Of a stretch of 15,942 nucleotides of DNA, positions 2,864 through 5,002 are shown in pieces. Under the pieces are notes generated by a model that was not told the DNA's origin, searched no databases, and saw only the letters and a list, made by a program, of their open reading frames with translations. The translations under genes were made by a program, and so were the position numbers. The DNA comes from Pseudomonadales bacterium (GTDB lineage: Bacteria > Pseudomonadota > Gammaproteobacteria > Pseudomonadales > Pseudohongiellaceae), in the NCBI GenBank assembly GCA_031277435.1, contig JAITMI010000061.1:1-15942 (forward strand). The letters are read 5' to 3'. Every line of letters starts with the position of its first letter. Position 1 is the stretch's first letter.

Positions 2864-3682
2864 ATGAGCGACCGCTACGCTGTGATGGGCAACCCCGTTG
2901 CCCATAGCAAATCTCCTTTCATTCATACCAGTTTCGCCCGCCAGTGCCGGCAGGACTTGCGTTACGAGGCGTTATTGGCGCCGCTCGATGGCTTCAAACA
3001 GGCGGCGGAGGCGTTTTTCGCGGGGGGCGGCAAGGGGCTCAACGTCACCGTGCCGTTCAAGCAAGACGCCTGGGCGCTGGCGCGGCGGCGCTCCGTGGGC
3101 GCCGAGCTGGCGGGCGCGGTCAACACGTTGTTGCTCAATGCAGAGGGCGAACTCGAAGGCCACAATACCGATGGGCCGGGCCTGGTACGTGATCTCACGG
3201 TTAATGCCGGCGGCGAGCTGCGCGATAAGCGCGTGCTGGTGCTCGGCGCTGGCGGCGCCACGCGCGGCATCGTGTTGCCGCTGTTGCAACTGGAGCCGGT
3301 GGAGCTGGTCATCGCCAACCGCACGCGGAGCAAGGCGGAGGAACTGGCGGCGCTGTTTGCCGCGCATGGCCGGGTGAGCGCTTGCGGGTATGAGGACTTG
3401 CCGGGGCAGCGCTTCGACTGGGTGCTCAACGCCACCGCCGCCAGCCTCGAAGGCAGCCTGCCGCCCTTGCCTGATGATCTCTTGGCGCAGGACGCCTGGT
3501 GCTACGACCTGATGTACGCCAAGGAGCCGACCATCTTTTGCCGCTGGGCGCAAGAACACGGCGCGGCGCGCGCGCTCGACGGCCTGGGTATGCTGGTGGA
3601 ACAGGCGGCGGAAGCGTTTTTGCTGTGGCGGGGAATGCGGCCGGATACCAGGGAGGTCTTGCGCGAGCTGCGCGCTCTCTGA
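2864..3682 (+). CDS. aroE: Shikimate 5-dehydrogenase
   Basis: AroE reduces 3-dehydroshikimate to shikimate with NADPH, a cytoplasmic step of aromatic amino acid and chorismate synthesis. The 272-residue product has the normal family length. The substrate domain shows NPVAHSKSPFIH (10-21), NVTVPFK with catalytic Lys66, AGAVNTL (83-89) and NTDGPGL with catalytic Asp103. The Rossmann domain has GAGGATRG (128-135) and the NADP-specificity motif NRTRSKA (152-158). The C-terminus has DGLGMLVEQAAEAFLLW (239-255). I chose ATG 2864, giving MSDRYAVMGNPVAHS; an in-frame GTG at 2849 lies inside the repeat and would add five residues. It is probably co-transcribed with hemF, and converges on the toxin-antitoxin gene, with only two bases between the two stops. 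Confidence 0.96.
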   Translation: MSDRYAVMGNPVAHSKSPFIHTSFARQCRQDLRYEALLAPLDGFKQAAEAFFAGGGKGLNVTVPFKQDAWALARRRSVGAELAGAVNTLLLNAEGELEGHNTDGPGLVRDLTVNAGGELRDKRVLVLGAGGATRGIVLPLLQLEPVELVIANRTRSKAEELAALFAAHGRVSACGYEDLPGQRFDWVLNATAASLEGSLPPLPDDLLAQDAWCYDLMYAKEPTIFCRWAQEHGAARALDGLGMLVEQAAEAFLLWRGMRPDTREVLRELRAL

Positions 3683-3684
3683 GC

Positions 3685-4050
3685 TTAGTTCAGTACCTCA
3701 ATGCCCTGCTTTTCGATCAGGGTGAGCAGGCGCAGCGCGGCGCCGCCGGGCTTCTTCACGCCGCGCTCCCAGTCCGACACCAGGTTTCTGGTGACATTCA
3801 TATACAGCGCGAATACCGGCTGCGACAGTTTTTCACGCTCGCGCAGCGCGCGGATGCGCTGTGGCGTCATCGGTTCGATTGGCGCCAGGCAGGAGGCGTC
3901 GAACTCGCGCAAGGTCTGTTTGCCGATCGCGCCAATGTCGTGCAGCGCCAGCATGGTTTCGTGGATGGAGGCGAGCGCTTCGCTGCGGTAGCTGCGCTCC
4001 ACGCGGTAGGCTTGTACCTTGTCGTGAATCATATCTTTATCTTTTGCCAT
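3685..4050 (-). CDS. Internal start for HTH antitoxin (HigA/NadS-like)
   Basis: In-frame initiation at ATG 4050 would give a free 121-residue antitoxin beginning MAKDKDMIHDKV. The ATG is preceded on the minus strand by GGAGGT (4063-4058) with a 7-base spacer, the best ribosome binding site in this part of the window. The product would hold the whole antitoxin, including a Cro/C1-type HTH at about residues 62-105 that would bind DNA and the toxin. Antitoxins of this class usually repress their own operon, so the palindrome at 4425-4443 is the natural target. In ordinary RelE/HigA-like pairs the toxin gene comes first and the antitoxin starts just after its stop, so this internal start sits exactly where an independent antitoxin gene would begin. 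Confidence 0.65.
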   Translation of the reverse strand: MAKDKDMIHDKVQAYRVERSYRSEALASIHETMLALHDIGAIGKQTLREFDASCLAPIEPMTPQRIRALREREKLSQPVFALYMNVTRNLVSDWERGVKKPGGAALRLLTLIEKQGIEVLN

Positions 4051-4416
4051 GGGATTTACCTCCACGAACTGGCCGCGCTCGACCAATTGCGCCAACTGCG
4101 TCTCGCTTAGCGCGAGCACTTGGGCGGCGGCCTGGCGAAATGCGCTCAATTCCTCGGCGTCGATGTTGTCGCGGTCGCTCTTGGCGAAGCCGTAAACGAA
4201 AACCGCGCGCTCCTTGGCCTGGTACAGCACAAGAGTACGAAAACCGCCAGACTGACCTTGCCCGCGACGCGCCACACGCTGCTTGATGACGCCGCCGCCA
4301 AGATCCGCGGCGATCAAGCCATTGTCGGCGCGGGTGATGGCGTCTCGCAGCGCCGTGTCTGAAATATCCTGTTTGCGGGCGAAGCGGTCAAACCAAGCAT
4401 TTTTATAAACCTTCAT
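3685..4416 (-). CDS. Single-frame RelE-type toxin plus HTH antitoxin (apparent fusion)
   Basis: This 243-residue frame joins two modules that are normally separate genes. Residues 1-122 look like a RelE-family toxin (PF06296-like ribosome-dependent mRNase): KVYKNAWFDRFARK, LGGGVIKQRVARRGQGQSGGFRTLVLY, VYGFAKSDRDNI. Residues 123-243 look like its HigA2/NadS-type antitoxin, with an N-terminal helical part and a Cro/C1-type HTH at about 184-227 (MTPQRIRALREREKLSQPVFA, then SDWERGVKKPGGAA). No stop separates them. The boundary codon is ATG 4050, preceded by GGAGGT at optimal spacing, so free antitoxin is probably also made. The toxin start (ATG 4416) has no clear Shine-Dalgarno; an in-frame TTG at 4422 is less likely. 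It lies tail to tail with aroE, downstream of yrdA. Domain assignments are from recalled family sequences. A sequencing error deleting a toxin stop is the main alternative. Confidence 0.8.
   Translation of the reverse strand: MKVYKNAWFDRFARKQDISDTALRDAITRADNGLIAADLGGGVIKQRVARRGQGQSGGFRTLVLYQAKERAVFVYGFAKSDRDNIDAEELSAFRQAAAQVLALSETQLAQLVERGQFVEVNPMAKDKDMIHDKVQAYRVERSYRSEALASIHETMLALHDIGAIGKQTLREFDASCLAPIEPMTPQRIRALREREKLSQPVFALYMNVTRNLVSDWERGVKKPGGAALRLLTLIEKQGIEVLN
4058..4063 (-). promoter_or_regulatory. Strong internal Shine-Dalgarno for the antitoxin
   Basis: The plus-strand bases ACCTCC read GGAGGT on the minus strand, 7 bases before ATG 4050. They fall inside toxin codons, so the ribosome binding site is embedded in the coding sequence. 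This contrasts with the toxin start at 4416, which lacks one. Confidence 0.7.
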
Positions 4417-4424
4417 GGGCAAAC

Positions 4425-4443
4425 TATCACACTAAGTGTGATA
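4425..4443. promoter_or_regulatory. Operator-like palindrome before the toxin-antitoxin gene
   Basis: TATCACACT, one central base, AGTGTGATA forms a perfect 9+1+9 palindrome. It lies 8 bases upstream of the toxin ATG (4416, minus strand) and 10 bases beyond the yrdA stop. Position and symmetry fit an operator for the HTH antitoxin (autorepression). I found no well-spaced -35/-10 pair around it, so the promoter position is open. Confidence 0.65.
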
Positions 4444-4453
4444 TGTGAATGGC

Positions 4454-5002
4454 CTACATAATCGCCTTCGACGTAATCAAATGCAGGTTCTTGAGCTTGA
4501 CGTAGTGGGCGGCGCTGTAGCGTAGGAATTCCAGCTCATCGGGGCGCAGTTCGCGCACGCGGGTGGCGGGGGAGCCGACGTACAGGCCGCCGCTTTTGAG
4601 CACTTTGCCGGGGGTTACCATGCTGCCGCCGCCGACGAATACTTCGTCTTCCACCACCGCGCCGTCCATCACGATGGCGCCCATGCCGATCAATACCCGG
4701 TTGCCGATGGTGCAGCCGTGCAGCACGGCTTTGTGGCCGACGGTGACGTCGTTGCCGATCACCAGCGCGAAACCTTCGGGGGCGGGGCCGTAGTCGGGCG
4801 AGGTGCAGTGCAGCACCGAGCCGTCTTGCACGTTGGTGCGCTCGCCGATGCGGATGTTGTGCACGTCGCCGCGCACCACGGTGCCGGGCCAGATCGAGGA
4901 ATCCGTGCCAATGGCGACTTTGCCGATCACGATGGCGCTTTCATCGACGTAGACGCGGTCGCCGAGCATGGGGAAGTGATCAAGGTAGGAGCGGACGGTC
5001 AT
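4454..5002 (-). CDS. yrdA: Gamma-class carbonic anhydrase family protein (YrdA-like)
   Basis: This is a left-handed beta-helix (hexapeptide repeat) protein of the gamma-carbonic anhydrase/YrdA family; these are trimeric cytoplasmic zinc proteins whose physiological activity is often unproven. The 182-residue length matches E. coli YrdA (184). Hexapeptide-type repeats run from about 20 to 135. The three zinc-ligand histidines fit His65 (VLHCTS), His90 (VGHKA) and His95 (LHGCTIG). The motifs RGDVHNIRIG (44-53), NVQDGSVLH (57-65) and YVGSPAT (141-147) are typical. I chose ATG 5002, preceded by AGGA (5013-5010) with 7-base spacing, although the frame is open to about 5131. In E. coli yrdA also lies convergent to aroE (with yrdB between), so the neighbourhood is conserved apart from the toxin-antitoxin gene. 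Carbonic anhydrase activity itself is inference. Confidence 0.9.
   Translation of the reverse strand: MTVRSYLDHFPMLGDRVYVDESAIVIGKVAIGTDSSIWPGTVVRGDVHNIRIGERTNVQDGSVLHCTSPDYGPAPEGFALVIGNDVTVGHKAVLHGCTIGNRVLIGMGAIVMDGAVVEDEVFVGGGSMVTPGKVLKSGGLYVGSPATRVRELRPDELEFLRYSAAHYVKLKNLHLITSKAIM

Follow-up and report, generated by a model that had tools for sequence, protein, structure and literature searches.

The window, a 15,942-nucleotide stretch of contig JAITMI010000061.1 from a Pseudomonadales bacterium, contains a single gene in which a RelE/HigB2-type toxin of family PF06296 and a helix-turn-helix (HTH) antitoxin are joined in one reading frame. Comparison with a second species, which carries the same gene at the same locus, makes this fusion look real and maintained by selection. 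The reading that we favor, with moderate confidence, is that a chromosomal PF06296 (RelE/HigB2) type II module has been merged and selected as a fusion, and that it would provide both a cis-inhibited toxin and free antitoxin from an internal start. Fused toxin-antitoxin genes have usually been met singly and undated; in the present case an orthologous pair, empty sites in sister species and many separate relatives allow the merger of the frames to be read and selection on the result to be seen.

The fused frame

The frame occupies the minus strand from 4416 to 3685 and encodes 243 amino acids, with its start codon at 4416-4414 and an additional in-frame TTG two codons upstream of that ATG (for the other features, see Table 1). 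When the full-length fusion was searched against Pfam, residues 1-120 covered 120 of the 120 positions of the PF06296 profile (E 4e-48), and the score of 163-166 bits, against a curated cut-off of 27, places the toxin half within the PF06296 RelE/HigB2-type toxins. An HTH_3 match followed at residues 188-230 (E 6.4e-6). Profile NF007481 (PRK10072), which we take to be YiaG, matched the fusion at 20 bits, below its cut-off of 110 bits. The claim of a preliminary description, that a RelE-type toxin and an HTH antitoxin share one frame with no intervening stop, is thus confirmed, and the gene departs in this respect from the two separate genes of a bicistronic type II toxin-antitoxin pair. Judged by spacing only, K45, R47, R60, F77 and K79 would correspond to the active-site residues K49, R51, R64, Y82 and K84 of HigB2 (PMC10098735), the successive gaps being 2, 13, 17 and 2 residues in the fusion and 2, 13, 18 and 2 in HigB2. 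The phenylalanine at residue 77, in place of the tyrosine of HigB2, is found in at least 97% of 36 separate relatives.

Table 1. Features of the fused gene and its upstream region (window coordinates)
Feature	Position	Strand	Remark
Operator-like palindrome TATCACACT-t-AGTGTGATA, 8 nt ahead of the toxin ATG	4425..4443		Perfect 9-nt arms
Toxin half, residues 1-122, PF06296 (RelE/HigB2 type)	4051..4416	-	Pfam E 5.9e-49 for the toxin part
GGAGGT, ribosome-binding-type site for the antitoxin, within the last codons of the toxin	4058..4063	-	GGAGGT also in the second species
Spacer from GGAGGT to ATG, 7 nt	4051..4057	-	8 nt in 49 of 72 separate pairs
Internal ATG, the ancestral antitoxin start	4048..4050	-	
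Linker, residues 123-142, exceeding that of separate antitoxins by about 16 residues	3991..4050	-	Counted up to the Y(R/K)S motif
Antitoxin half, residues 143-243, HTH (XRE/HigA2/YiaG-like)	3688..3990	-	
Stop codon, with the aroE stop (3682) 2 nt away	3685..3687	-	

The same fusion in a second species

An ortholog of 248 amino acids, with 75% identity to the fusion of the window, is encoded in Pseudomonadales bacterium isolate Ast373_bin18 (JAIRJU010000067.1; locus L005, protein P0002). Its genome, G005, is a member of the same genus as that of the window, the same contig place and the same protein identifying locus and genome with each other. The module is flanked by aroE and a gamma-carbonic-anhydrase gene in the two species alike, and hemF and dprA follow further out. 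The module is missing from this site in all eight of the other genus members in which the site was found (G001-G003 and G006-G010); in these genomes aroE adjoins the carbonic anhydrase gene, the two matches being 4 to about 70 nt apart, and the fusion has no match there. In one more member of the genus, G004, aroE was not found. The empty sites, together with the shared site in two species, argue that the module entered once in their ancestor or was lost from the others. Both fusion-bearing species are known from metagenome-assembled genomes (MAGs), 73% and 88% complete.

Probable route by which the two frames merged

The arrangement of the separate relatives points to the way in which the fusion arose. 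A GTDB set of 80 loci, 6 of them without a toxin match, left 74 loci with both halves. Relative to the toxin, the antitoxin frame is +1 in 56 of these, in frame but separate in 10 and +2 in 6, and the remaining two loci are fused (the ortholog described above and L010, see below). Of the 72 separate pairs, 49 have the antitoxin start 8 nt past a GAGGT inside the toxin gene; the spacer is 5 nt in 3 others and 6 nt in 2, while 15 pairs have no exact GAGGT and the start was not located in 3. This spacing argues that the toxin gene carries the ribosome site of the antitoxin within its last codons. Where an exact GAGGT is present, in 54 separate pairs, the spacer is 5, 6 or 8 nt, never a length that would join the two original frames.

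In the window and in its ortholog the spacer is 7 nt, so that the ATG falls in the frame of the toxin, and neither species has lost the GGAGGT, the spacer or the ATG. In the toxin tree the pair of fusions is a single clade (99/98), nested within 21 rows (98/94), mainly from beta- and gammaproteobacteria, that are otherwise separate toxins. The shorter spacer and this nesting suggest that one nucleotide of the spacer was lost and the antitoxin start kept. On this comparison the frames were likely merged before the two species diverged, by way of a spacer one nucleotide shorter, the direction of the change being taken from the tree. The preliminary description had proposed that a toxin stop was lost, and that homologous pairs would reveal it. 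In the separate relatives, however, the toxin stop lies mostly in another frame, beyond the antitoxin start, and no lost stop was found; for this clade, loss of the toxin stop was rejected in favor of the shorter spacer.

Selection on the fused gene

Between the two species the whole gene has a dS of 0.81 and a dN/dS of 0.19 (Nei-Gojobori). By the same method dN/dS is 0.138 for the toxin half and 0.224 for the antitoxin half, and the flanking genes give 0.138 (aroE), 0.074 (hemF) and 0.167 (carbonic anhydrase). The linker is far less constrained, with a dN of 0.44 and saturated synonymous sites; its difference in length between the species is a 12-nt (four-codon) indel that leaves the frame intact. 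Had the fusion ceased to matter, the frame would not have been preserved in this way, which argues that the fusion is kept as such by selection. The second species at the same locus, the low dN/dS and the in-frame indel together strongly disfavor both assembly error and decay.

Conserved residues are similarly retained. Both fusions keep all 25 toxin columns that are at least 97% conserved in 36 separate toxins, and 36 of the 37 that are at least 90% conserved; at position 36 both have A, compared with D in 92% of the separate toxins. Of 49 antitoxin columns that reach 90% conservation over 46 rows, 45 are retained by each fusion; both fusions have L169, M206 and T209 where separate antitoxins have M, L and S. 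These substitutions, like the one at position 36, count against the favored reading.

Synonymous changes are unevenly distributed along the gene. Synonymous divergence is 0.307 in the antitoxin half (window 3688-3990 against 3433-3744 of the ortholog) and 0.608 in the toxin half (Fisher P 1.5e-4), and the antitoxin half is also below the three flanking genes (P 8e-4). The antitoxin/toxin ratio was never that low in 103 comparisons among 35 separate pairs (median 1.07), comparisons that are not independent and that leave out Brucella rows, pairs other than +1 and pairs outside a divergence range. Recombination of the antitoxin half, or stronger codon selection on it, could possibly account for this difference, and the second of these would be in keeping with additional translation that begins at the internal start. 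At the internal start itself there is no excess of synonymous conservation, with 7 of 10 codons identical between the two species (P 0.53, a count that another placement of the linker gap would change slightly), and so this test does not support use of that start.

Linker and predicted structure

The stretch in front of the antitoxin core, counted as residues before the Y(R/K)S motif, comprises 20 residues in the window and 24 in the ortholog, compared with 3-6 in the 69 separate pairs in which it could be counted. AlphaFold2 predicted the fusion with its linker at a mean pLDDT of 93.2 and a pTM of 0.84, and the linker-less fusion L010 at a pLDDT of 91.8 and a pTM of 0.64. The difference in pTM, which is a single number per model and in the case of L010 concerns a distant sequence, is what one would predict if fixed docking of the two halves required the long linker.

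Expression signals and a putative operator

The preliminary description had assigned an internal ribosome binding site and ATG to the antitoxin part and none to the toxin start. The first of these assignments stands (Table 1), and the second holds for the window, where no Shine-Dalgarno-like sequence precedes the toxin ATG. The internal start is therefore the better of the two starts in the window, where little fusion may be made. The ortholog differs in having AAAGGA 5 nt ahead of its first ATG; the missing toxin ribosome site is thus not conserved, and it would favor antitoxin over fusion in the window but not in the second species. Within 4417-4443 the palindrome lies 8 nt from the toxin ATG (20 nt in the ortholog) and no ribosome site is left for the toxin, whose start may be leaderless or very weak.

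None of 60 shuffles was as good as the palindrome of the window. The ortholog has a related palindrome with one mismatch, CTGTTACAC-ttc-GTGTGACAG, ahead of its own toxin ATG, and the motif TNACAC-N3-GTGTNA lies upstream of 19 of 59 toxin starts, including those of both orthologous fusions, which suggests that the palindrome is an operator of the family. A palindrome equalled by at most 5% of shuffles was found at 21 of the 59 toxin starts; the other 40 toxin starts gave no such operator signal in the simple motif test. A promoter scan of 3600-4600 returned one promoter-like site, at 4391-4363 inside the toxin half, and none upstream of the toxin. RNA folding around the two starts was unremarkable in all four stretches considered (z -0.62 to 0.70).

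Other fusions and related loci

A second, independent toxin-antitoxin fusion, with no linker, is present in a Treponema MAG (L010, 3001-3681); it was found in one of two genomes of that genus. Its sister L014 (327-1016) has a stop within a 9-nt stretch that is missing from L010, and in this case loss of the toxin stop does fit the sequences. Besides the protein of the window, 18 fusion-like proteins were found among the best 120 listed, and only the ortholog P0002 keeps both the last residues of the toxin and the N-terminus of the antitoxin. The junctions of the other 17 are shifted, deleted or spliced (P0006); we read these as frameshifts or errors, with natural near-junction fusions possible among them. 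One protein, P0134, retains the end of the toxin, but a different stretch connects it to the antitoxin and the first part of the toxin is missing.

Among the matching rows, single open frames over both halves were found only in the genomes of the window (G000) and of the ortholog (G005) among 194 relatives (51 with a match, E 1e-3), 137 family members (9 matching at 1e-25) and 11 genus members, and only in G000 among 369 class members (47 with a match at 1e-15) and 398 phylum members (5 with a match at 1e-30), in samples that overlap and with stricter E limits that would miss distant fusions. Matches were found in 324 plasmid records, the best 15 of which are all two-piece, in 2 phage records, one being a single-piece match annotated as two features, and at 3 loci of viral contigs.

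At 12 of the 74 GTDB loci (L006, L015, L016, L033, L043, L047, L053, L059-L061, L065 and L081) the toxin frame is broken, internally deleted or part-matched by the criterion used, and the antitoxin is still recognizable. The genome of the window has three further PF06296 toxin genes (L002, L003 and L004), none of them fused; one of their partner antitoxins has an in-frame stop and another lies at a contig end.

Proposed mechanism and alternatives

In the mechanism that we favor, translation from the toxin start would yield the full-length protein, whose antitoxin half would fold back on its own toxin half and keep this predicted ribosome-dependent mRNase from acting. Ribosomes initiating at the retained internal start would add free antitoxin as a backup for this inhibition, and dimers of the HTH antitoxin, with or without the fusion, would bind the palindrome and repress the promoter there. 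The toxin would be set free if the antitoxin half and linker were lost or sequestered. A more specific version, to which we give somewhat less than an even chance, is that this is a stable two-product design, in which every message can yield toxin chained to its own antitoxin together with free antitoxin that also sets repression, the longer linker having evolved later for docking; spacer length at the ribosome site, taken modulo three, would then be the switch between overlapping genes and a fused gene. The fusion of the window predicts two products from one gene, and offers a clean test of whether a cis-tethered antitoxin alters toxin release.

The closest competing explanation, which we consider unlikely, is that the fusion is natural but yields the fused chain only, the internal ribosome site being an unused remnant that is kept because it encodes the last residues of the toxin. 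The Glu-Val pair encoded by GAGGT is conserved as protein (E119 is found in at least 97% of 36 separate toxins), and the junction shows no excess synonymous conservation. A fused chain alone would sit less easily with the retention of the GGAGGT, the 7-nt spacer and the ATG, all three, in both species, and with a toxin start that in the window has no ribosome site of its own. It is less probable still that the module has been tamed, with the toxin inactive or hardly translated and the gene kept as an antitoxin or repressor, for instance to counter related toxins encoded at other loci of the genome. The bare toxin ATG of the window would suit such a role, as would the closeness of the palindrome (8 nt, compared with 20 in the ortholog), the three additional PF06296 toxin genes that this genome carries and the antitoxin-half synonymous divergence, which is half that of the toxin half. 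But purifying selection on the toxin half is as strong as on aroE (0.138 in each), the 25 most conserved toxin columns are all kept, and the ortholog has a plausible toxin ribosome site. With the frames merged through a shorter spacer, the version of this idea in the preliminary description, a toxin tamed by loss of its stop, does not hold.

That description had also raised an assembly error, and the dropping of one nucleotide in assembly or sequencing deserves mention since the window is one MAG contig and the 17 fusion-like proteins with altered junctions indicate that such errors or frameshifts do occur in the family. An independent MAG of another species has the same junction, the same spacer and a homologous linker, with no stop or frameshift near 4051-4060, which the preliminary description had named as what would refute it, and the 12-nt linker indel is in frame. 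We therefore reject the error, which is scarcely credible for a fusion present in two species, and the natural fusion that the description had offered as one of its readings is upheld by the shared frame and locus.

Comparison with known systems

Merged and maintained as we propose, the fusion resembles separate PF06296 pairs of the higBA2 type, as described for Vibrio cholerae HigBA2 (PMC11006873, PMC10098735), with which it shares the toxin-antitoxin order, the toxin fold, the HTH antitoxin and a palindromic, in its case putative, operator. Those pairs differ in making two chains from overlapping frames and in the short N-terminus of the antitoxin. The N-terminal segment of V. cholerae HigA2 inhibits HigB2, and HigA2 binds a single inverted repeat (PMC11006873), which speaks for the proposed mechanism.

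The predicted pair of products resembles that of the Rpn gene-within-gene arrangement, in which one frame gives a full-length toxic protein and a C-terminal antitoxin from an internal ribosome site and start (PMC10327210); the internal product has been demonstrated for Rpn and is predicted here. The Rpn toxin is a nuclease of the PD-(D/E)XK kind whose C-terminal portion is no HigA-type repressor, whereas the toxin half of the present fusion is PF06296 and no PD-(D/E)XK nuclease family is among its Pfam matches. In EzeT (PMC4803016) and CapRel-SJ46 (PMC9712102) toxin and antitoxin domains also lie in one chain, with the antitoxin acting in cis, but the toxin folds are unrelated (a zeta kinase and a toxSAS, respectively) and there is no HTH antitoxin.

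The nearest published relatives are the fused PF06296-YiaG genes of a 2025 survey (PMC11980606), in which RelE-YiaG fusions (PF_RelE being PF06296) account for 7 prokaryotic genes among 195 fused BECR-fold genes. The present gene has the same layout, with an N-terminal PF06296 toxin and a C-terminal YiaG/HigA2-like HTH in one gene and a poorly conserved joining stretch between them. The concern of the preliminary description, that the homologs might belong to a known single-gene family, is thus justified only in part: such fusions are a published class, but a small one. The main text of the survey does not mention internal starts, Shine-Dalgarno or ribosome binding sites, start codons or translation initiation, and the present case goes beyond that text in its orthologous pair at one locus, the selection acting on it, the origin of its junction and its retained internal start. 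A fusion of this kind is already in print, and the origin of the one described here is unusually clear.
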